From a virus, in the IMG/VR virus record IMGVR_UViG_3300036780_000043, positions 1 to 50,494 of that record: 50,494 nt of DNA; one strand, written 5' to 3'. The first letter of the stretch is position 1, and each line of letters starts with the position of its first letter. The notes beneath the pieces were generated by a model. That model saw only the letters and a program-made list of their open reading frames with translations. It had not been told where the DNA came from and did no database searches. Positions 8,870 to 50,462 of this stretch are shown here, one piece after another. A program made the position numbers and the translations under genes.

Positions 8870-9662
8870 AACAGACTTAGCAGACCTGAAACTAACACAG
8901 AAGACAATCGGAGGACTTAACATCAAGTCGGTCACTGAATCGGTGCCGTACTTGAACATGCTTGTGTACGGCGAGCCTGGTATAGGCAAGACGCGTTTGG
9001 CTGGCTCAGCCAGTGAAGTGCCTGAGCTCTCGCCAGTTCTTGTAATCGACGTTGAGGGCGGTGTCCTTTCTCTCGCCAAGGATTATCCCAACGTCGACGT
9101 AGTCCGTATCGAGTCGTGGGAGGATATGAATAGTGTTTACTCTGACCTATTCGACGAGCCGGGGCGATACAACACAGTCGTACTCGATTCCATCTCCGAG
9201 ATGCAGAAGTTTTCTATGTCGCGTATTATGGAAGCGGCCGTTGCTAAGAACCCTATTCGAGAGATCGAAGTGCCCGGAATACGTGAGTGGGGCATCAATG
9301 GCGAACAAATCCGCATGCTGGTTCGAGCCTTCAGGGATATGGATATCAACATCATCCTCACTGCCCATGTTCTCGAGGACAAGGACGAGGCTACGAGCAC
9401 AGTCAAATACAAGCCATCGCTCACAGGCAAACTGAAGAACGAGATCGCAGGCTTCATGGACATCGTTGGCTACATGTACAAGAAGCGGATCAAGGACGAG
9501 GCAAGCGGCGAGCGCTACCTCGGTACATTTCTCCTTACCTCGGCAACAGATAAGGAGGTAGCAAAAGACAGAAGCGGTAAGTTGCCTCAGGTCATTGAGA
9601 ATCCGACAATGGCTGAGCTGTTTGACTACATCAACGGAACACGAACAGAAAGCGAACAATAA
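8853..9662 (+). CDS. Sak4-like RecA-fold ATPase (AAA_24 type)
   Basis: A 269-residue RecA-like NTPase. Walker A is GEPGIGKT (residues 40-47), followed by VLVIDVEGG, and Walker B is VVLDSISE. The order and size match the Sak4 group of phage single-strand annealing/recombination ATPases. The preceding Cas4-like nuclease and the following DUF669 gene are its usual partners. AAAGG lies 6 bases before the ATG. Confidence 0.85.
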   Translation: MLTETKTDLADLKLTQKTIGGLNIKSVTESVPYLNMLVYGEPGIGKTRLAGSASEVPELSPVLVIDVEGGVLSLAKDYPNVDVVRIESWEDMNSVYSDLFDEPGRYNTVVLDSISEMQKFSMSRIMEAAVAKNPIREIEVPGIREWGINGEQIRMLVRAFRDMDINIILTAHVLEDKDEATSTVKYKPSLTGKLKNEIAGFMDIVGYMYKKRIKDEASGERYLGTFLLTSATDKEVAKDRSGKLPQVIENPTMAELFDYINGTRTESEQ

Positions 9663-9663
9663 A

Positions 9664-10137
9664 ATGGCTGGATTGAAACTGAACCTAGGAGACATCGAAC
9701 TCAAGAACTTCGACCCGGTGCCTGCAGGTACGTACACCTGTACCGTCACTGCCGGCGAGATGAAGAAGACTTCGGGCGAAGGCAAGCTCGGCGTGGTTCC
9801 CATGATCAACTGGGAGTTCACCATTGTCGAGCCCGAAGAGTTCGCCAAGCGCAAGCTGTGGACGAACACTGTCATCCACGAGACGACGTTGTTCAACCTG
9901 AAGGCTCTGCTCTTGGCCACGGGTGAGTACACCGATGAGGACCTCGCTACCGAGATCGACTTCGAAATCGAGGACGTCATCGGCAAGGAACTCGATCTCG
10001 TCGCAGGTCAGCGCGAGTACCCGAAGGATTCAGGCGAGTGGCGCAACGAAGTCAAGCGCTTCGTCGTTCCGGAGTCGGGCGCCGCGGCCCCTGCAGGTAA
10101 GGCGAAGGGAGCAACCAAGAAGTCGCTTCTGCCTTAG
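9664..10137 (+). CDS. DUF669-like protein, probable ssDNA-binding partner
   Basis: A 157-residue acidic protein: FDPVPAGTYTCTVTAGEMKK at the start, a central INWEFTIVEPEEFAKRKLW beta domain, and a Lys/Ala tail ending KKSLLP. This matches the DUF669 pattern; such proteins are usually encoded beside Sak/Sak4 recombinases and are thought to act as single-strand binding proteins. Codons are more GC-rich and biased than those of adjacent genes, like the HTH genes at 1868 and 50103, which suggests high expression. It is followed by a strong hairpin at 10158-10201. Confidence 0.75.
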   Translation: MAGLKLNLGDIELKNFDPVPAGTYTCTVTAGEMKKTSGEGKLGVVPMINWEFTIVEPEEFAKRKLWTNTVIHETTLFNLKALLLATGEYTDEDLATEIDFEIEDVIGKELDLVAGQREYPKDSGEWRNEVKRFVVPESGAAAPAGKAKGATKKSLLP

Positions 10138-10157: not shown

Positions 10158-10201
10158 AGGGGCGTCATCGTTGAGCTTCTCCGCCCTCCGATGGCGCCCC
10201 T
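10158..10201 (+). terminator. Hairpin between DUF669 and primase genes
   Basis: AGGGGCGTCATCG (10158-10170) pairs with CGATGGCGCCCCT (10189-10201), 13 base pairs with one G-T, around an 18-base loop. No T run follows. It would separate the highly expressed upstream gene from the primase and argues that the in-frame ATG at 10191, buried in the stem, is not the primase start. Confidence 0.55.
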
Positions 10202-10223
10202 GCATTATCCCGAAAGGAGCAAG

Positions 10224-12404
10224 TTGCTTGTAGTCTCAAACGAAGCCAAGGAAAAGAGGGCGACTTTCTTTCGTCTTATCTTCCAGGACTATGAAGGCTT
10301 CATTTGCATTGCACACCGCGTTGCAGGTAAAGGTGCATTTGGGGAAGAGTTCTTTATGTATCCAGGTGAAATGGATACAATGCTGGGACACGTAGAACTG
10401 AAAGTTATGGGGAACGATGTCTGGTTCAGTCCAATGTTGTTTGGAACCAGAGTACGTAGGAAGGACGAAGTCACAGTTACACCAGTTCTTTGGGCGGATC
10501 TTGATACATGCGAACCCGCCAAGCTCTTAGTCAATCCAACTATCACAGTTCAAACGTCACCTGGTAAGTGGCAGGGGGTATGGAAACTCAATGAAGCTAT
10601 TGACCCTTCGGACGCAGAAGCGATTTGTAAGCGTATCGCTTACCACCACGCAGACGATGGAGCCGACAAGTCTGGATGGGATCTTACACAACTGCTTCGG
10701 GTCCCCTATACAAACAACTACAAGTACGGGAATACCCGACTTCCGACTGTCCAGATCGTTGACACTGACGGTACGGAGTACACAGCAAGTACGTTCGATG
10801 TGTATCCGACGACCGAAGAGCTCGAGAGGGAAGAGATTCCATTTCCAGACAAGTGGCCCCACGAAGATGGTAGCGCAGCCCTAGAGGCGAACAAGACAAT
10901 CATCCCTCCCCAGGTCTGGCCCTTGATACAGCTGCCTCCACAGGGTGATTGGAGCAAAGCTCTCTGGCAACTCGAGATGCTCCTATTCGAAACAGCTTTG
11001 ACGCGTGAAGAGGTCTTTCTAATCGTCAAAGACTCCGCCTGCAATAAGTACAAGCGGGATGGACGTAGCGATAAACTCCTGTGGAAAGACGTCTGCAGAG
11101 CGCAGGGACAGAAACTCCACCAAAGCATCTTGATTAGTCCTAGTGTCGATAAGGAGCCAGGGTCACTCCTATCGCCTGAGGAGGAAGTGGAAGCTGAAGC
11201 CGACATCACATTCATTGAGGAGTACGTCAAGTGGGCGAAATCGTTAGGGGACGCGGCCTGGCAATATCACGAGGCAGGAGCATTTATCATCTTGTCCAGC
11301 CTCTTGTCGGGCGCGGTCAAGTTACCTACAAGCTTTGGGATCGTCGTTCCAAACTTGTGGTTCATGCTTTTAGCCGATACGACTTTGACGAGGAAAACGA
11401 CGGCGATGGACATCGCGATGGAAATGTTGATGGACGTAGATCCAGATTGTATGCTAGCAACAGATGGGTCTATCGAGGGCCTCTTCACGTCACTATCAAT
11501 GAGACCGAATCGGGCTTCTGTATTCTTACGCGACGAGTTCTCGGGCCTATTAGAAGCCATGACCAAGAAGGATTACATGGCGGGCATGGCGGAGACACTC
11601 ACCAAGTTGTACGATGGAAAATACCAAAAGCGAGTACTCCGGAAAGACATAATCGAGGTCAAGGACCCTATTCTGATCATCCTTGCTGGGGGGATCCGAA
11701 CCAAGATTCAGTCATTGTTACAGTTCGAGCACGTCAGTTCGGGCTTCATGCCGAGGTTCGTATTCGTCACAGCCGTATCTGACACTTCTAAGATGATGCC
11801 TCTCGGACCTCCCACTGATAGGTCAACTGGTGATCGTCTTCTGATTCTTGACAAGCTTCGTGATCTGTATCTCCGAGTGTCGATGGACCAACAGATAACA
11901 GTAAATGGTCATGTAACACTTACTAAGCCTCGCATCGAAGCCCAGTTGACACCTGAAGCTTGGGCTCGTTACAATAAGTTTGAGTCTGACCTACTCGATC
12001 TTGGACTTCGTTCAGTAATGCCCGATATGCTGATGCCTACTATGGATCGTCTAGCAAAGAGCGGGCTGAAGGCGTCAGTACTGATCGCAGCTTCCAGAGG
12101 GCTACAAAGCAATACCTTGACAGTAACAGAGAAGGACCTGATCAAGGCGATATCATTCGTCAACAAGTGGCGAGACTATGCTATCCAAGTAATCAGGAAC
12201 ATTGGAATGAGTACACAAGAGAGGCTTATTGACCAGGTCTATTCAGCAATCCTAAGATCACCAGACATCTTGCGTTCAACAATCATGCGCAATCACCACC
12301 TAACAAAACGTGATGCCGACCTAATCTTGGACACCCTTGAGCAGCGAGGCCTAATCAATCGATTCCGTCTTGGTAGCGGAGAAAGGCTTACAACACATGG
12401 CTAA
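10224..12404 (+). CDS. Primase-helicase (prim-pol-like plus DUF3987-like)
   Basis: The TTG at 10224 is chosen because AAAGGAG lies 5 bases before it; the upstream ATG at 10191 is inside a hairpin. Of 726 residues, the N-terminal third (PVLWADLDTCEP, WKLNEAIDPSDAEAI, DLTQLLRVPYTNNYKYG) resembles a primase-polymerase/RepB-like domain with its metal-binding aspartates. The middle is a helicase-type ATPase: LADTTLTRKTTAMDIAM as a Walker A variant and SVFLRDEFSGLLEAM as Walker B, as in DUF3987 proteins. The C-terminus (about 650-720) is winged-helix-like. It would prime and unwind at the fork. It overlaps queC by 8 bases. Confidence 0.75.
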   Translation: MLVVSNEAKEKRATFFRLIFQDYEGFICIAHRVAGKGAFGEEFFMYPGEMDTMLGHVELKVMGNDVWFSPMLFGTRVRRKDEVTVTPVLWADLDTCEPAKLLVNPTITVQTSPGKWQGVWKLNEAIDPSDAEAICKRIAYHHADDGADKSGWDLTQLLRVPYTNNYKYGNTRLPTVQIVDTDGTEYTASTFDVYPTTEELEREEIPFPDKWPHEDGSAALEANKTIIPPQVWPLIQLPPQGDWSKALWQLEMLLFETALTREEVFLIVKDSACNKYKRDGRSDKLLWKDVCRAQGQKLHQSILISPSVDKEPGSLLSPEEEVEAEADITFIEEYVKWAKSLGDAAWQYHEAGAFIILSSLLSGAVKLPTSFGIVVPNLWFMLLADTTLTRKTTAMDIAMEMLMDVDPDCMLATDGSIEGLFTSLSMRPNRASVFLRDEFSGLLEAMTKKDYMAGMAETLTKLYDGKYQKRVLRKDIIEVKDPILIILAGGIRTKIQSLLQFEHVSSGFMPRFVFVTAVSDTSKMMPLGPPTDRSTGDRLLILDKLRDLYLRVSMDQQITVNGHVTLTKPRIEAQLTPEAWARYNKFESDLLDLGLRSVMPDMLMPTMDRLAKSGLKASVLIAASRGLQSNTLTVTEKDLIKAISFVNKWRDYAIQVIRNIGMSTQERLIDQVYSAILRSPDILRSTIMRNHHLTKRDADLILDTLEQRGLINRFRLGSGERLTTHG

Positions 12405-13068
12405 AGGAGTTGCAATCGTATCAGGTGGCATGGACAGTGTTGTCCTTGCCCATATGCTTGCCGAGAAGGACGAGCTCCACTTGCTCTCGTTCAACTACGG
12501 TCAGCGGCACGGTAAGGAGTTGATCTTTGCCCGCGAGTGCGCCGAAGACATCGGAGCGAAGTGGGATCTGATCGACCTTCACGAGTTCGGATCCCTGCTA
12601 AAGGGGTCAGCGTTGACTGACGACATCGACGTCCCTCACGGGCGCTACGACGATGAGTCAATGAAGGTGACCGTTGTACCCAACCGCAACGCGATCATGC
12701 TGGCTCTGGCGACTGGTGTTGCAGTCGCAGAAGGGGCTAGCTACGTAGCTACGGGTGTCCACGCTGGCGACCACGCAATCTACCCAGATTGTCGTCCAGA
12801 GTTCATTTCTAAGATGTCCTACGCAATGAACGCAGCCAACGAAGGGTTTGTAGTTGCAGGGTTTAGAATCGTCGCACCGTTTGTGCATATGGGCAAGGAA
12901 GACATCTGCGCCATAGGCAACAATCTCGACAGCCCTGTCGATCACGGGAAGACGTGGTCCTGCTATGAAGGCGGCGAGCTCCACTGCGGCAAGTGCGGAA
13001 CCTGCGTCGAACGCATAGAAGCATTTCAACTTTCAGGTGTGCCTGATCCGACAGTGTATGCTTTATGA
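12397..13068 (+). CDS. queC: QueC, 7-cyano-7-deazaguanine (preQ0) synthase
   Basis: The ATG at 12397 is preferred (AGAAAGG upstream), giving 223 residues. The PP-loop SGGMDS (about residues 9-14) binds ATP. The C-terminus carries the zinc site SCYEGGELHCGKCGTC. QueC converts 7-carboxy-7-deazaguanine to preQ0 using ATP and ammonia. In phages with a DpdA protein this supplies a base for DNA modification rather than tRNA. It begins the cassette shared with queD, queE and folE, and overlaps the primase gene. Confidence 0.95.
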   Translation: MAKGVAIVSGGMDSVVLAHMLAEKDELHLLSFNYGQRHGKELIFARECAEDIGAKWDLIDLHEFGSLLKGSALTDDIDVPHGRYDDESMKVTVVPNRNAIMLALATGVAVAEGASYVATGVHAGDHAIYPDCRPEFISKMSYAMNAANEGFVVAGFRIVAPFVHMGKEDICAIGNNLDSPVDHGKTWSCYEGGELHCGKCGTCVERIEAFQLSGVPDPTVYAL

Positions 13069-13271
13069 GTACAGAGTGCAAAGTAGTCGGCACCTGTCCT
13101 AACTGTGACCAGCTTGTTGTAGTCACAGGAGTTGCCGATCCGAGCATGCATGAAGCGCGCATGATAGCTTGGGGTAAGTGGGCTGCGTACTGTTTAATGA
13201 CAGGCTTCACAGGTATCATCTTAGCAGGATGTGCCTACGGTATAACGGAAATCCTAGTACACCTGCCATGA
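13065..13271 (+). CDS. Zinc-knuckle plus one membrane segment
   Basis: Starts within the queC stop (TTTATGAG). The 68-residue product has CPNC (about 11-14) and a C-terminal hydrophobic segment (about 41-62; AAYCLMTGFTGIILAGCAYG). It is co-translated with queC and the next small gene. Function unknown. Confidence 0.5.
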   Translation: MSTECKVVGTCPNCDQLVVVTGVADPSMHEARMIAWGKWAAYCLMTGFTGIILAGCAYGITEILVHLP

Positions 13272-13492
13272 CAGAGACACGACAAGACAAGAGGTACGAC
13301 GCTTGGTGTGCCCAGCACGAGGAGCATCCAATGGTATGCTTCTGGAAGCACCACCCAGAAGTATGTAATGCCCATCACAGGCAGAGCTGTCCTGACTGTA
13401 CTATAGTAACGGAGGCAACAGATGCAAGCGATCAGGTTGAAGCACAACTCGGAGATGGGTCACAGACTGACTCTGAGTCCGGGCAAGTGTGA
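13268..13492 (+). CDS. Cys/His-rich small protein
   Basis: ATG at 13268 overlaps the previous stop. The 74 residues include CAQHEEHPMVCFWKHHPEVC and HHRQSCPDC, which could bind zinc, and an acidic Ser/Asp/Gln tail. It overlaps queD by 71 bases in another frame. No family recognised. Confidence 0.45.
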   Translation: MTETRQDKRYDAWCAQHEEHPMVCFWKHHPEVCNAHHRQSCPDCTIVTEATDASDQVEAQLGDGSQTDSESGQV

Positions 13493-13841
13493 AAGGATCC
13501 ACGGCCATAGCTGGTGGTTCGAACTAACTATCAGCGGTGATCCTCATCCAGCTACGGGCATGATCATCGACTTTGCGGACGTCAAGCGATGGATGCGGAA
13601 CTTCATCGACGACAACTGGGACCATAGGCTGATGCTGAATACAGACGACCCTGTGGTTCCCTTTCTCAAGTCGCTGCTGCCTACTGACTCAATCGTTCAC
13701 CTACTACCTCATTGTGATCCTACGGTCGAGAACGTTGCAGCCTACTTTGGTAAGCTTGCGCGCAATCAGTTCGGCACGGGCTATAACTACCAGGTATGGG
13801 TGCAGGAGACCGGAGTCAATGCAGCATACTGGGAGGGTTAA
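13422..13841 (+). CDS. queD: QueD, 6-carboxytetrahydropterin synthase
   Basis: A 139-residue member of the 6-pyruvoyl-tetrahydropterin synthase family. Zinc ligands are a His in MGHR and two in HGHSW, the catalytic Cys is in GKCERIHGH, WDHRLMLN supplies the Asp-His pair, and PTVENVA carries the substrate glutamate. It converts dihydroneopterin triphosphate, made by the FolE product encoded downstream, to 6-carboxytetrahydropterin. GGAGG lies just upstream of the ATG despite the overlap with the preceding gene. Confidence 0.92.
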   Translation: MQAIRLKHNSEMGHRLTLSPGKCERIHGHSWWFELTISGDPHPATGMIIDFADVKRWMRNFIDDNWDHRLMLNTDDPVVPFLKSLLPTDSIVHLLPHCDPTVENVAAYFGKLARNQFGTGYNYQVWVQETGVNAAYWEG

Positions 13842-14074
13842 TGAGTCAGCAGAAAAGGGTCCTAACAACCTGGATGCACGACGAAGCGACTGAAGTGACC
13901 TTCAAAGTGAAAGTCATTCCAGGACGTATTGAACGCTACTACTCGTGGTGTTCAGAGCATGGAGCAACAGGTCAACTAACACACCGAAAGAAGGAGGCAA
14001 ACAAAGATATGGGAAGTCACATGCATTCCCAACACGCTTGGATGGTTGATAGTCAGAAGGTGCAACGTGCCTAA
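13841..14074 (+). CDS. Hypothetical protein within the que cassette
   Basis: The ATG at 13841 overlaps the queD stop (TTAATGA). The 77-residue basic product (LTTWMHDEATEVTFKVKVIP, HRKKEANKDMGSHMHSQHAW) has no recognised domain but several His residues. It overlaps queE by 8 bases. Its fixed place in the cassette suggests a link with the pathway or simply operon filling. Confidence 0.5.
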   Translation: MSQQKRVLTTWMHDEATEVTFKVKVIPGRIERYYSWCSEHGATGQLTHRKKEANKDMGSHMHSQHAWMVDSQKVQRA

Positions 14075-14765
14075 AGGGAAACTTCGACTAGTTGAACACT
14101 ACGTTAGTCCGCAGTGCGAAGGACCCCGAACAGGTACGATGACTCAGTTCGTACGCTTCGCCGGCTGCAACATGAAGTGTCCACTTTGGCCTTGCGATAC
14201 TGACTACGCCATCGATCCCGCAATCTATCGGGAAGGCTCTTCATGGGTTGAACCCTTCGAGTTAGCAGAGCGTGTCGCTTGGATGTATCGTTCCACAGGG
14301 GCTTCGAATGTCTGCTTAACTGGTGGAGAGCCATTCCTGCAGGACAACGACGCGTTGCATGACTTCGTAATGGCCTGCGATGCGACGTTCGAGTGCTTCT
14401 CGAACGGGTCATTCTCTTACCCCGACTGGTCGATCAATGTGGTCGACTTCGTCATGGACTGGAAGCTTCCAGGCTCAGGTGAGTGGGAGACGCGGATCGA
14501 ACAGAGAGAGAAGAACGCCCTGAAGCTCATGAGTACGGACGCGATCAAGTTCGTTGTTGCTTCTGACGAGGACCTAGAAGTCGCCGCTGAGACATACGAT
14601 GGTCTTCTAGGTAAGGACTGTCGAGCTCACTTCTGGGTAGGACCAGCTTGGGACAAGTACGACCCTATCAAGATCATTGACTACATCAAGAACACCGCGT
14701 ATCCATGGAAGCTAAATCTGCAAGTGCATAAAATGATTTGGCCTCCCGACATGAAAGGTGTATAG
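14067..14765 (+). CDS. queE: QueE, 7-carboxy-7-deazaguanine synthase
   Basis: A GTG at 14067 with AGAAGG upstream gives 232 residues beginning MPKGKLRLVEHYVSPQCEGP, the usual QueE start. It is a radical SAM enzyme converting 6-carboxytetrahydropterin to 7-carboxy-7-deazaguanine. The cluster motif reads GCNMKCPLWPCDT, a CX3CX4C spacing rather than the more usual CX3CX2C. TGGEPFLQ is the SAM-binding GGE motif. It is co-expressed with queC, queD and folE. Confidence 0.92.
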   Translation: MPKGKLRLVEHYVSPQCEGPRTGTMTQFVRFAGCNMKCPLWPCDTDYAIDPAIYREGSSWVEPFELAERVAWMYRSTGASNVCLTGGEPFLQDNDALHDFVMACDATFECFSNGSFSYPDWSINVVDFVMDWKLPGSGEWETRIEQREKNALKLMSTDAIKFVVASDEDLEVAAETYDGLLGKDCRAHFWVGPAWDKYDPIKIIDYIKNTAYPWKLNLQVHKMIWPPDMKGV

Positions 14766-15322
14766 TGAGCGAACCAGGAGACGACAGCTTGGTAACGGAC
14801 ATCGCGAATGTCCTGAAGTACGTAACAGGCAACAAGTTCGAAGCACCGCACATGAAGGCGACCCCGAGGAGATGGGCAAGCATGATGGAGATCCTAACCT
14901 CGCCGGTTGAGTTCGAGTTCACGACCTTCGAGGACGATCACCAGGAGATGGTACTTGTCGCAGACATTCCATTCTTCTCGTTGTGTGCCCACCACTTGAT
15001 CCCGTTCTTCGGCAAAGCACATGTTGCGTATATACCGAACGGCAAGCTAGTGGGGCTATCAAAGATCCCCCGCACGGTCAAGTACTTCTCGTCATCGCTT
15101 CAGGTGCAGGAGACCTTAACCAGTCAAGTTGCCGACTTTCTTGACGCGCAGCTCGCGCCGAGGGGCGTCGCAGTAGTCATGAAGGGAGAGCACCTCTGTA
15201 TGGCGATGAGAGGGGTGCAAGTGCCTGGAACACAGACAACAACATCGGCAATGAGAGGAGTCTTCCTCGACAACGACAACACCGCACGTGCAGAGTTCTT
15301 AGCTTTGATTCCGTGCACTTGA
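14765..15322 (+). CDS. folE: FolE, GTP cyclohydrolase I
   Basis: The GTG at 14765 overlaps the queE stop, with GAAAGG upstream, giving 185 residues. The zinc site is SLCAHHLIPF plus GEHLCMAMRG, and LVGLSK and LQVQETLTSQVA match the family core. It converts GTP to dihydroneopterin triphosphate, the first step toward preQ0. A phage copy raises precursor flow independent of the host folate pathway. It completes the four-gene preQ0 route in this window. Confidence 0.95.
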   Translation: MSEPGDDSLVTDIANVLKYVTGNKFEAPHMKATPRRWASMMEILTSPVEFEFTTFEDDHQEMVLVADIPFFSLCAHHLIPFFGKAHVAYIPNGKLVGLSKIPRTVKYFSSSLQVQETLTSQVADFLDAQLAPRGVAVVMKGEHLCMAMRGVQVPGTQTTTSAMRGVFLDNDNTARAEFLALIPCT

Positions 15323-15349
15323 TTTGGTACGAAAGGATGTAGTAAAATA

Positions 15350-15697
15350 ATGATATTGAACTTCGACGAAATGCTCAAGCAGATGCAAGAGGACAGTGAT
15401 AGGTGGTTTGGGCCGAACATTCACAACAACCTGACTATCATGACTCTCGGCCTTGGAGGCGAGACTGGTGAAGTACTTGACATCGTCAAGAAGCTAGCCC
15501 GCGGATCTCTTTCAATGGGCGAGGCAACCGCACTGCTTGAGGAGGAGCTAGTTGACGTCTTCCACTACTGGTTGATGTTGATCGGCATGCTACACGTAGA
15601 CGTCCAAGCTATCTACGACCGCAAAAGAGAATACAACGAAAGGAGATGGGGTGACGGAAACAAGGGAGTCGGAACCTACAGCGGCCCAAATACTTAA
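15350..15697 (+). CDS. MazG-like nucleotide pyrophosphohydrolase
   Basis: A 115-residue single-domain MazG-type protein: LGLGGETGEVLDIVKK and LEEELVDVFHYWLM supply the ExxE and ExxD metal-binding motifs, and the tail AIYDRKREYNERRWGDG is typical. It hydrolyses nucleoside triphosphates to monophosphates. Beside a base-modification cassette it may shape the nucleotide pool. GAAAGGA precedes the ATG. TTGATT (15319) and TAAAAT (15343) with an 18-base spacer may form a promoter that would give an almost leaderless transcript. Confidence 0.8.
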   Translation: MILNFDEMLKQMQEDSDRWFGPNIHNNLTIMTLGLGGETGEVLDIVKKLARGSLSMGEATALLEEELVDVFHYWLMLIGMLHVDVQAIYDRKREYNERRWGDGNKGVGTYSGPNT

Positions 15698-16049
15698 CGG
15701 GCTTGCTGACGAGTTCAGAGAGTTCTGTCAAGCACGGCATGACGTTGGCGCCAAGGAGTACGGGCCAACAAAGTTCCTAAGCAACAACATGTTCAAGATG
15801 ATTGCCGAAGAGATGGCAGACATCTCCAACTACTGCATGTACGAGTACATCAAGTTGCGACTCATGGAAGGAGTCCTAGATGAAAGTGGCGCTTATTCAA
15901 CCCCTCACATTGACCGGAGTGAGGGAGACGGGTTATCACCTCCTTTTGCCTCATTTAGCGGAGCTGGGGAGCTATCGGAACTCCTACGTCAATCGGGGTG
16001 GATACAAGATGATGGACAATGGAGCGGCGGAGGGGAACCTAGTCAGTAA
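15651..16049 (+). CDS. Second MazG-like protein
   Basis: The GTG at 15651 overlaps the first MazG gene by 47 bases. Residues about 15-75 (FREFCQARHDVGAKEYGP, MIAEEMADISNYCMYEYIKL) look like an all-alpha NTP pyrophosphohydrolase with an EExxD motif. The last 57 residues overlap the dpdA-like gene by 170 bases in another frame and look low in complexity, so the functional protein may be the first 75 residues plus an accidental tail. An upstream frame change that would shorten it cannot be excluded. Confidence 0.55.
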   Translation: MTETRESEPTAAQILNGLADEFREFCQARHDVGAKEYGPTKFLSNNMFKMIAEEMADISNYCMYEYIKLRLMEGVLDESGAYSTPHIDRSEGDGLSPPFASFSGAGELSELLRQSGWIQDDGQWSGGGEPSQ

Positions 16050-16620
16050 CTTCGACGTCGTTCGCCTTGCGACAGAGCTCAAGTGCGACGAACTTGTCCT
16101 CCCCGATGTGATGGGTGACTTCAACGAAACCTTGAACGCTGTTGAGAGGTACCTAGATGACCTCGAACTTCGCTCCCTGTGGATGGGGAAGTACATGGCC
16201 GTCGTTCAGGGCGTGACAGAAGAGGAGGTCAAAGATTGTATCGACTACTACGAGCAGGAGGATGCGATCGATACGATTGCCTTGCCGCGCATCCTTGGAA
16301 ACACTTTCCCCAGGACGGTACGTCTCGAACTCGCTGCGTACATCAGATCGATATATGGGCCTGACAAAGAGATCCACTGCCTTGGTGCCTTCGCCTATAT
16401 AGAGGAGGTGGAGGCGCTGCATATGCAAGGGATCGTACGCGGCCTCGATACCTCACTTCCATTCGTTCTTGGCAAGGCTGGTATCGAGCTCATACCAGGA
16501 TGTGAGTTCGTTTCGAGAGGTAACAACGACAACTTCTTCTTTGAACCTCTCCAGAGAGCTCAGCAAGTCTATTGCCAAGCAAACGTCGATGCATACCTAT
16601 CTATGGCAGGTATGATGTGA
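15880..16620 (+). CDS. dpdA: DpdA-like TGT-fold enzyme (7-deazaguanine insertion into DNA)
   Basis: A 246-residue protein with TGT-like barrel signatures in order: MMDNGAAEG (about 44-52), DELVLPDVMGDF (about 69-80), KYMAVVQGVTEEEV, TIALPRILGN, IHCLGAFAYIEE and VRGLDTSLPF. This matches the short phage DpdA group, related to tRNA-guanine transglycosylase, which exchanges guanine in DNA for a 7-deazaguanine. The aspartates in LPDV and GLDTS are catalytic candidates. GGAAGGAG lies just before the ATG, inside the preceding gene. Its place right after queC/D/E and folE supports the role; preQ0 is the predicted base since no QueF or amidotransferase partner is present. Confidence 0.85.
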   Translation: MKVALIQPLTLTGVRETGYHLLLPHLAELGSYRNSYVNRGGYKMMDNGAAEGNLVSNFDVVRLATELKCDELVLPDVMGDFNETLNAVERYLDDLELRSLWMGKYMAVVQGVTEEEVKDCIDYYEQEDAIDTIALPRILGNTFPRTVRLELAAYIRSIYGPDKEIHCLGAFAYIEEVEALHMQGIVRGLDTSLPFVLGKAGIELIPGCEFVSRGNNDNFFFEPLQRAQQVYCQANVDAYLSMAGMM

Positions 16621-18926
16621 CAAAACGACACCCACTAGCAGATTGCGAGAACTGCGGGCTGAATACGCCTGATGCAGCTTTCGTACCAACTATCATACCG
16701 GAAGGATGTAATGGAATCGCAATCGTCGGAGAAGCTCCAGGTTACCGAGAGGGTCAAACAGGTAAGCCGTTCACTGGCCCAAGCGGAAAACTCCTTGACG
16801 CTGTGCTCAGAAGTCATGGAATCAATCGAGACGAATGTCTTATCACCAATGTTTGCCTCTGTCGTCCAAGAGACAACCGAACGCCTACAAAGGCTGAGGC
16901 AGCTTGTTGCTCTGCAAGGCTTACTAACGATCTCGAGCCCGACGACGTCGACACGATCATCGCCCTCGGAGGTACAGCTGCTTCAGCTATTGAGGGCGTC
17001 GAAGTCAAGATTACCTCCGCAAGAGTCGGGCCGCCAAAGGAATCGCCGAGATTCCCAGGTAAGCGCATCATCAACACCTTCCACCCAGCGTACATCCTCC
17101 GCGCGCAAGACGCCTTCCCCCAACTCGTAGATGACATCGGAAAGATCAATGCCACCGTTGGATCAAGTTGGCAACCCCCAACGTTTAGAGTCTTTGATAC
17201 GGGCGATGACGCTTGCGACGCACTGCGAGAACTGTGTATTCGACTTGAGCGCCCTGACGGACGAAGAGTGGTACTCGACATCGAAGTCGGAACTGAGAAA
17301 GACTCCGACTTCACTCATCCAGATCAATATCAGCTGTTGTGTGTTGGACTTGGTTACGATCGAGGAAAAGTGGCCGTTCTTGGTGAGGGTGCACTACAAG
17401 ACCTCCGAGTGCGAAATCTGCTCCGTCGATACCTTGAGGATCCACGAGCCCGTATATCGGCGCATAACGGAAAGTTCGACCTAGCAGGCCTTCGGCCTAT
17501 CAGAGTAAACGCCCGCCTGAGTTTTGACACCATGCTGGCCAGCTATGTGTTAGACGAGCGAGCTGGAACGCACGGCTTGAAGTACTTGGCGGTAGAAAAG
17601 CTAGGGACGCCTCAGTATGACCTCGAGATCAAAAAGTACGTCCTCAATAAAGGTGACTCATATGCAAACATCCCACGAGACATCCTCTACAAGTACAACG
17701 CGTACGACGTTGCGTGCACTTGGGATCTGCAGGACATGCAAGAAGCAGAGCTACGAGACGACCACGGTCTCCGAAAGCTGCACGATTTCCTTATCTGCGG
17801 ATCCACCTTACTTCAAGAACTCGAAATGTCAGGATTGCGGGTTGACACTGGGTACCTTGCCGCCCTCCATCTGGAATACGAACGAGCTATGGATGCAAGG
17901 AAGCGGGTGCTCAGCCGTTTCGTTGATAATCCCAACTCCCCGAAGCAGGTCAAGGAAGCACTAGCCGAAATGCATATCAACGTCGAGAGCACAGCTGTCG
18001 ACGTCCTACTAGAGATTCAGAAGAGAGCAGAAGGCGACCTAGCCTTCTTTATTGAACAGATGCTCCTGTGGAGAAGGGAAGCGAAGCTGTATGGTACGTA
18101 CATTAAGGGCATTTCGAAGCGTCTGTACAGAGGGCGGATCCACCCATCCTTTCTACTTCATGGAACTACGACTGGTCGACTTGCTTGTCGAAATCCGAAT
18201 CTGCAGAACGTTCCACGGGAGTCGAAGATTCGAAAGATGTACGTGCCCGACAGCGGGAACGTTTTCGTCCAAGCAGACTACAAGACGATCGAGCTCAGGG
18301 TGGTTTGTGTATTGGCGCGTGACCAAGCTCTCGCGGAAATGCTCGACCCATCGAGAGACATCCACTCTGAAGTCGCCCTCAGGTTCTTTGGTCCTGGGTT
18401 CACGAAAGAGCACCGAGTACGTGCGAAGGCTGTAGTGTATGGACTTACTTACGGTCGAGAAGCTTACGACCTTGCAATGGAGTTTGATATTCCAGTCAAG
18501 GAAGCTCAGGCATACATCGATATCTGGTTCAGTATGATTCCAGATACCGTAGCATGGCGACAGGAGGTAATGCGATCGATCCTTCAGGACCAAGAAGATC
18601 TGATCTCACCCTTTGGTCGACATCGTCGCTTCTGGCTTATCACCGACGACAACCGAAAAGACGTCCTTAAGGAGGGCCTTGCATTCCTACCACAATCGAC
18701 TGCTAGTGACATTAACCTTGCTGCTGCATATCGCATCCAGCAGATGGGAATGGATGTCAAGCTACTTGTACACGACTCGACTATGGTTGAGTGTAAAGAA
18801 AGTGAGGCAGACGACGTGGCGCTAGTTATGTCGGAAGTGATGGAGCGAACTGCCGTTGAACTATTCAGTGACTTCGTTCCATTTCCTGTCGACGTTAAGA
18901 TAGGCGACGATTGGGGAGCTGTATGA
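16617..18926 (+). CDS. DNA polymerase I with N-terminal uracil-DNA glycosylase domain
   Basis: The GTG at 16617 overlaps the dpdA stop (ATGTGA), giving 769 residues. Residues about 1-190 are a family-4-type UDG: CENC, GEAPGYREGQTGKPFTGP, CRPRDNRTP with a cysteine 15 residues on (4Fe-4S pattern CxxC plus CX15C), and FHPAYIL. Next comes a 3'-5' exonuclease (VLDIEVG, ISAHNGKFDL, YNAYDVACT), then the family A polymerase: motif A QADYKTIELR, motif B RAKAVVYGLTYG, motif C LLVHDST. The UDG motif has EG where ED is usual, so glycosylase activity is uncertain. Similar fusions are known in some phages. It replicates the phage genome. Confidence 0.92.
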   Translation: MTKRHPLADCENCGLNTPDAAFVPTIIPEGCNGIAIVGEAPGYREGQTGKPFTGPSGKLLDAVLRSHGINRDECLITNVCLCRPRDNRTPTKAEAACCSARLTNDLEPDDVDTIIALGGTAASAIEGVEVKITSARVGPPKESPRFPGKRIINTFHPAYILRAQDAFPQLVDDIGKINATVGSSWQPPTFRVFDTGDDACDALRELCIRLERPDGRRVVLDIEVGTEKDSDFTHPDQYQLLCVGLGYDRGKVAVLGEGALQDLRVRNLLRRYLEDPRARISAHNGKFDLAGLRPIRVNARLSFDTMLASYVLDERAGTHGLKYLAVEKLGTPQYDLEIKKYVLNKGDSYANIPRDILYKYNAYDVACTWDLQDMQEAELRDDHGLRKLHDFLICGSTLLQELEMSGLRVDTGYLAALHLEYERAMDARKRVLSRFVDNPNSPKQVKEALAEMHINVESTAVDVLLEIQKRAEGDLAFFIEQMLLWRREAKLYGTYIKGISKRLYRGRIHPSFLLHGTTTGRLACRNPNLQNVPRESKIRKMYVPDSGNVFVQADYKTIELRVVCVLARDQALAEMLDPSRDIHSEVALRFFGPGFTKEHRVRAKAVVYGLTYGREAYDLAMEFDIPVKEAQAYIDIWFSMIPDTVAWRQEVMRSILQDQEDLISPFGRHRRFWLITDDNRKDVLKEGLAFLPQSTASDINLAAAYRIQQMGMDVKLLVHDSTMVECKESEADDVALVMSEVMERTAVELFSDFVPFPVDVKIGDDWGAV

Positions 18927-50102: not shown

Positions 50103-50462
50103 ATGGCACGCACCGCAACCGACACACCTGACACCGCCGAGGAGACCGAAGAGATGGTCAGCGAGCCCGTGCTCGTGACCGTCGAAGACGTCGCCAAGCT
50201 GATGTCGGAGTCAACCGACCCACGGCTGCAGGAGCAGCTGGCCCAGAGCATCGTGAACCCGATCGTGCTGGCGAAGATGCTGGGAGTGAAGCCGCAGCAG
50301 ATCTACAACCGCATCCGAGCGGGCAAGATCGCCACGGTGACCCAGAACTCGACGCAGAAGATCGTCATTCCGATCGCCGAGGCGCAACGATTCGCGGCCA
50401 ACTACATGGACCGCAAGGCTCGCTCGCAGGCCAAGCTCGAAGCTGAGTTGGCAGGCGAGTAG
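50103..50462 (+). CDS. PQxxY-type helix-turn-helix protein, paralogue 4
   Basis: A 119-residue protein with an acidic N-terminus (MARTATDTPDTAEETEE), a helical part (VTVEDVAKLMSESTDPRLQE), then NPIVLAKMLGVKPQQIYNRI and RAGKIATVTQN followed by the hairpin QKIVIPIAEAQRF and a basic helical tail. The core aligns with 1868, 4029 and 47754. Codons are highly GC-rich and uniform, as in paralogue 1, which suggests strong expression. It has the best promoter in the window. It is likely an abundant DNA-binding protein of the phage. Confidence 0.7.
   Translation: MARTATDTPDTAEETEEMVSEPVLVTVEDVAKLMSESTDPRLQEQLAQSIVNPIVLAKMLGVKPQQIYNRIRAGKIATVTQNSTQKIVIPIAEAQRFAANYMDRKARSQAKLEAELAGE

Follow-up and report, generated by a model that had tools for sequence, protein, structure and literature searches.

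Why should a phage carry, between its primase and its DNA polymerase, every gene needed to make a 7-deazaguanine from GTP, followed by a gene that no family database labels? The question arises for the IMG/VR virus record IMGVR_UViG_3300036780_000043, the whole 50,494 bp of which was analysed (the window). The best available answer, and a probable one, is that the cassette serves to modify the DNA of the phage itself: four enzymes supply a 7-deazaguanine, and a compact DpdA, a predicted DNA-guanine transglycosylase of the family found in Campylobacter phage CP220 and Cellulophaga phage phiST, exchanges it for guanine in DNA. The genes that carry this reading are:

12397-13068, + strand: queC, 7-cyano-7-deazaguanine synthase, 223 aa (PF06508, 1.2e-56; TIGR00364 over cut-off)
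13422-13841, + strand: queD, 6-carboxytetrahydropterin synthase, 139 aa (PF01242 (PTPS), 1.8e-24; TIGR03367, 4.4e-22)
14046-14765, + strand: queE, radical S-adenosylmethionine 7-carboxy-7-deazaguanine synthase (TIGR03963, 4.6e-38; phrog_2076, 2.1e-29)
14738-15322, + strand: folE, GTP cyclohydrolase I (PF01227, 8.1e-59; TIGR00063 over cut-off)
15880-16620, + strand: dpdA of the CP220/phiST family, 246 aa, predicted DNA-guanine transglycosylase with a TIM barrel (family profile and structural model)

A complete preQ0 pathway

All four enzymes of preQ0 (7-cyano-7-deazaguanine) synthesis, FolE, QueD, QueE and QueC, are present with signature motifs, among them SGGMDS and C...CGKCGTC in QueC, GKCERIHGH in QueD, and SLCAHHLIPF and EHLCMAMRG in FolE. 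The original prediction, made from the sequence letters, had claimed the entire route from GTP to preQ0; family searches bear it out at the coordinates listed above, with E-values of 1e-24 to 1e-59. FolE probably starts inside its listed open reading frame (ORF), near position 14765. The closest phage relative of QueC is that of Arthrobacter phage Sonali (54%); gene 81 of Sonali was considered as a DpdA-like protein and dropped, the match being a short local one in hhalign.

The fold and active site of the predicted transglycosylase

The product of the gene at 15880-16620 has no match in Pfam, NCBIfam or PADLOC; its one PHROG match is phrog_20335, of 'unknown function' (8.9e-7); as a single sequence it finds nothing among PDB sequences; and at E<=1 nothing in the entire 50,494 bp matches the Pfam family of tRNA-guanine transglycosylase (TGT), PF01702. 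Its AlphaFold2 model is an eight-stranded barrel (predicted local distance difference test 94, predicted template-modelling score 0.91). Foldseek ranks archaeosine TGT first (1j2b, 5e-8), and VIA-align superposes the model on archaeosine TGT 1iq8 with Z 17.3 and 3.4 A over 226 residues. A match among PDB sequences required the family profile: this finds 7ui4, a solved bacterial DNA-guanine transglycosylase (E 3.4e-5), and, weakly, the TGT of Zymomonas, with D190 aligned to the catalytic aspartate and Q110 to the QG motif. In an alignment of 60 sequences D46, E51, H166, G169 and D190 are invariant, and N47, D76, Q110, G134 and R148 nearly so; the CxCxxC zinc motif is absent from the 246-residue sequence. 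That a TGT-fold protein ends the cassette, as originally proposed, is upheld by model, structural match and family profile alike.

Relatives and the literature point to base exchange in DNA, to a high level of replacement and to protection from restriction. FolE, QueD, QueE and QueC would carry GTP to preQ0, or would stop at its amide form, 7-amido-7-deazaguanine (ADG). The compact DpdA would then exchange guanine in phage DNA for one or the other: D190 would attack C1' of deoxyguanosine, guanine would leave and the 7-deazaguanine would enter, as in TGT. DNA modified in this way would be expected to resist many host restriction enzymes.

A member of the CP220/phiST family

With the dpdA protein as query, tblastn reaches only sequences about 30% identical to it, in Bacillus phages BSP7, BSTP5, BSTP8, BSTP10 and BSTP12 and in Weizmannia phage Youna2. 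Starting from BSP7, the chain of similarity extends to CP220, phiST, Brevundimonas phage StAshley, Chryseobacterium phage MA9V-3 and Flavobacterium phage immuto, among which the annotation is DNA guanine transglycosylase. A hidden Markov model (HMM) built from CP220, phiST, immuto and MA9V-3 only gives the window protein 69 bits (E 2e-18) and the proteins of BSP7 and Youna2 82 bits. HMMs of DpdA1 (9g, Rosebush, CAjan) and DpdA2 (Vibrio nt-1) do not match the window protein. Profile-profile similarity to DpdA1 is distant (E 7e-4, probability 27%), with the catalytic residues in register, and hhalign to DpdA2 gives E 0.027 over 26 columns. Among viral structures the phiST protein matches best, with a template-modelling (TM) score of 0.83, as against about 0.5-0.6 for DpdA1 of Mycobacterium and Arthrobacter phages.

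By sequence and by model, the window DpdA is assigned to the group of the CP220 and phiST proteins and not to DpdA1 or DpdA2. The comparison with known DpdA groups that the original prediction had called for thus keeps the protein in the DpdA superfamily and withdraws its placement in DpdA1: the DpdA1 and DpdA2 HMMs are silent, and the CP220/phiST HMM responds. Like the four pathway genes and the order in which they stand, the TGT fold, the catalytic residues and the subfamily are read directly from sequence or model. We take the CP220/phiST family to be DpdA3, a name and definition used here as a lead; Cui et al. 2023 reportedly named that group and linked it with the replacement of all guanine. 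The consequence is that an unlabelled, divergent transglycosylase finds its place in a family linked to total replacement of guanine.

The family is widespread. Scanning viral contigs with the dpdA protein as a single sequence returned no relatives; an IMG/VR scan with a three-sequence alignment returned 91, of which 80 were kept, and local HMM searches then found 96 dpdA-like copies in 94 loci. Neighbourhoods were counted in the 70 dpdA loci having at least 3.5 kb upstream. A polymerase lies near dpdA in 61 of these, all four preQ0 genes in 46, a MazG-like gene in 38 (a second, unproven MazG-like family being counted as MazG) and a kinase in 15; one or more of the MazG-like, kinase, DUF6378 and DUF3310 genes is present in 55. 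The same neighbour HMMs find almost nothing near 80 DpdA1 loci, a contrast that is biased, the HMMs having been built from CP220/phiST-family loci and the DpdA1 set being mainly one lineage.

Some features of these loci deserve separate mention. Two carry tandem dpdA-like copies (L025, 7953-9430; L037, 7146-8975). A P-loop kinase adjoins dpdA in BSP7 (9348-9911), in Youna2 (9387-9938) and in locus L028 (7433-7999); in L028 it matches deoxynucleoside kinase (dNK, 3.1e-10), in BSP7 and Youna2 phrog_761, thymidylate kinase. The BSP7 DNA polymerase is encoded as two ORFs with an intervening sequence (10689-13592), and an HNH endonuclease occupies its queE-folE gap. The cluster motif of the window QueE is CX3CX4C (CNMKCPLWPCD), in place of CX3CX2C; this spacing is common to 15 related loci (including L004, L006, L015, L017, L023, L024, L030, L035, L047, L050, L051 and L086), longer spacings occur in others, and in the DpdA1 set it occurs in 0 of the 70 QueE proteins with a recognised motif.

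Which base, and how dense

The original prediction had named preQ0 as the base on the grounds that no QueF and no amidotransferase was seen. The absence itself holds: across the entire 50,494-bp record there is no family match to QueF, to a class-II amidotransferase or to the transporter Vut_1 (YhhQ), a weak QueF match (1.6e-4, under the cut-off) proving to be the FolE gene, whose fold is related. What the absence was taken to imply does not follow from it. In CP220 and CPt10, 100% of dG is reported to be replaced by dADG, the deoxynucleoside of ADG (PMC8306585); the CP220 relative CP21 carries queC; and QueC passes through an amide, to go by the title of a paper that PMC13329287 cites (Nelp and Bandarian 2015). 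Missing an amidotransferase does not, then, fix the base as preQ0. We give preQ0 about an even chance of being the base, and ADG a smaller though substantial one.

Density is subject to the same revision. The DpdA1 phages Rosebush and CAjan contain the deoxynucleoside of preQ0, dPreQ0, at 28% and 32% of G (PMC6884629). Because the window dpdA belongs to the CP220/phiST family, and CP220 and CPt10 have dADG at 100%, partial-density preQ0 no longer follows from gene content. By analogy with these phages, dense replacement by preQ0 or ADG would be at least as likely as partial preQ0.

A Vut_1/YhhQ-type transporter does occur near dpdA in seven related loci (L037, L052, L057, L062, L063, L065 and L068), and folE and queD are absent record-wide from these; one of the records is 44 kb long, the rest shorter fragments. 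The base may possibly be imported there rather than made.

The genes called MazG-like

Two genes stand between folE and dpdA:

15350-15697, + strand: MazG-like NTP pyrophosphohydrolase, 115 aa (PF03819 at 19.1 bits, cut-off 22; family HMM of relatives at 128 bits)
15651-16049, + strand: conserved ORF upstream of dpdA (phmmer matches in related loci; family HMM at 88 bits)

Both had been called MazG-like. For the first the designation is probable at the level of sequence: its own Pfam match falls below the cut-off, and homologues in related records exceed it. For the second, which about 30 related loci conserve directly upstream of dpdA, the designation is at most tentative: it has no Pfam or PHROG match, and its model (predicted TM score 0.44) finds no fold in the PDB. 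The two frames at 15651-16049 and 15880-16620 overlap by 170 bases, and the ribosome-binding site ahead of the dpdA ATG, GGAAGGAGTCCTAG, lies inside the upstream gene.

The further suggestion that these genes join control of the nucleotide pool to base modification comes down to adjacency. Record-wide, Pfam MazG is found in 22 of 43 DpdA1 records as against 11 of 36 records of the CP220/phiST family, and MazG, being commoner in the former, was for that reason rejected as a specific sign of synthesis at the nucleotide level.

Weighing the alternatives

Modification might be sparser than in CP220: a DpdA1-type enzyme could install dPreQ0 partially, at about 30% of G as in Rosebush and CAjan. This we regard as unlikely. 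The same four pathway genes, with no amidotransferase in the record, make up a content that has been linked to dPreQ0 (PMC6884629), but the enzyme that would do the work is matched by the CP220/phiST HMM and not by those of DpdA1 and DpdA2, its structural match to the phiST protein far exceeds those to DpdA1 of Mycobacterium and Arthrobacter phages, and CP220-family phages are the ones in which dADG reaches 100% (PMC8306585). That the cassette should merely raise a queuosine precursor for host tRNA, leaving phage DNA unmodified, is very improbable. This has been considered for phages that have pathway genes and lack a recognised DpdA (PMC6884629); here, however, a TGT-fold gene linked to DNA modification stands in the row, adjoining the polymerase in most relatives, and a phage wanting only the precursor needs no transglycosylase of its own.

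Exchange at the nucleotide level is a more elaborate proposition: MazG would turn dGTP into dGMP, DpdA would swap the base on dGMP (or on dGTP), and a kinase and the polymerase would see to its incorporation, after the manner of MazZ and PurZ. If it were so, the modified base would be polymerised, which would account for total guanine replacement, and total replacement in CP220 does fit synthesis before polymerisation. A MazG-like gene, a kinase or another gene of nucleotide-pool type lies near dpdA in the 55 of 70 loci counted above and in very few of the 80 DpdA1 loci; a dNK-type kinase adjoins dpdA in BSP7 and its relatives; MazZ supplies dGMP to PurZ in S-2L (PMC8342488); and a modified-dGTP path has been proposed for the Campylobacter phages, at a time when these were thought to be without DpdA (PMC6884629). 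Against this, TGT enzymes act on polymers and DpdA has been described as working at the level of nucleic acid (PMC12783734), and no kinase is found in the window. Net charge, tried as a sign of DNA binding and discarded, is alike in the two enzyme groups (each with a median of -2.3 per 100 aa). The route is improbable, and exchange in DNA is kept as the best explanation because the record-wide MazG counts, as high or higher in DpdA1 phages, and the bias of the neighbour contrast weaken its rival. DNA-level exchange with dense replacement has its own difficulties. Modification in the phage of the window is predicted here from genes and models; full replacement is reported for CP220 and CPt10, not for the closest relatives, BSP7 and Youna2; and the window dpdA sits on a long branch, with a highest identity of 35%, so that its activity or its choice of base could have changed.

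Comparison with known systems

The kind of cassette is already known. In BSP7, BSTP5, BSTP8, BSTP10, BSTP12 and Youna2 the order is that of the window (primase, queC, small ORF, queD, in some cases a second small ORF, queE, folE, small genes, dpdA and the polymerase gene polA), and the window adds a divergent member, its dpdA being about 28-30% identical to theirs. These phages differ from it in having a dNK-like kinase where the window has its presumed MazG pair, and BSP7 in its HNH endonuclease insertion. CP220 and CPt10, phiST and immuto share with the window a TGT-barrel DpdA of compact size (about 250 aa), preQ0 pathway genes and nearby genes of nucleotide metabolism; all four pathway genes adjoin polA in the window, whereas the phiST cassette lacks queC and the stretch of CP220 examined has no pathway genes adjoining dpdA. 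Rosebush, CAjan and 9g likewise combine the preQ0 pathway with a guanine transglycosylase in DNA modification against restriction, but their DpdA1 is a separate subfamily, and 9g adds Gat-QueC and makes dG+. The Z-genome phages (PurZ, MazZ and DatZ, as in S-2L) resemble the window in placing a MazG-like gene beside base-replacement genes; their base is made at the nucleotide level by PurZ, and unlike the window they have no TGT-fold protein.

The CP220/phiST-type family has members in about 90 IMG/VR loci as well as in the named Bacillus and Weizmannia phages, usually in a complete preQ0 cassette that adjoins the replicative polymerase. In cultured phages of B. subtilis that have the same cassette, direct measurement could show which base is used, how dense it is and whether exchange takes place in DNA or in nucleotides.

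The gene row and the rest of the record

The remaining genes of the row are:

10191-12404, + strand: primase
13065-13271, + strand: small ORF, 68 aa (its first 4 bases overlap the end of queC; no family match)
13796-14074, + strand: small ORF, 92 aa, between queD and queE (no family match)
16617-18926, + strand: family A DNA polymerase with an N-terminal uracil-DNA glycosylase (UDG)-superfamily domain (PF00476, 6.1e-63; PF03167, 4.4e-27)

From primase to polymerase, neighbouring genes overlap or lie almost end to end: the first bases of queC fall within the 3' end of the primase gene, and the probable start of the polymerase, a GTG at 16617, shares 4 bases with the end of dpdA. Since the cassette forms one overlapping row between primase and DNA polymerase, it is probably produced together with the replication machinery.

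The gene content of the record is that of a tailed phage: the minus strand encodes a portal, a terminase, a tape measure and a head protease, the plus strand a helicase, a ligase, an exonuclease, a Sak4-like annealing protein and the primase. Over its first 25 kb the window shows no nucleotide similarity to named phages. The UDG-superfamily domain fused to polymerase A also has relatives that cover the domain in phages such as Pseudomonas phage PMBT14 and Serratia phage Serbin. At the end of the record, an ORF at 50103-50462 has weak matches to HTH_17 (5.4e-5) and to a MazG-like family (3.1e-4).

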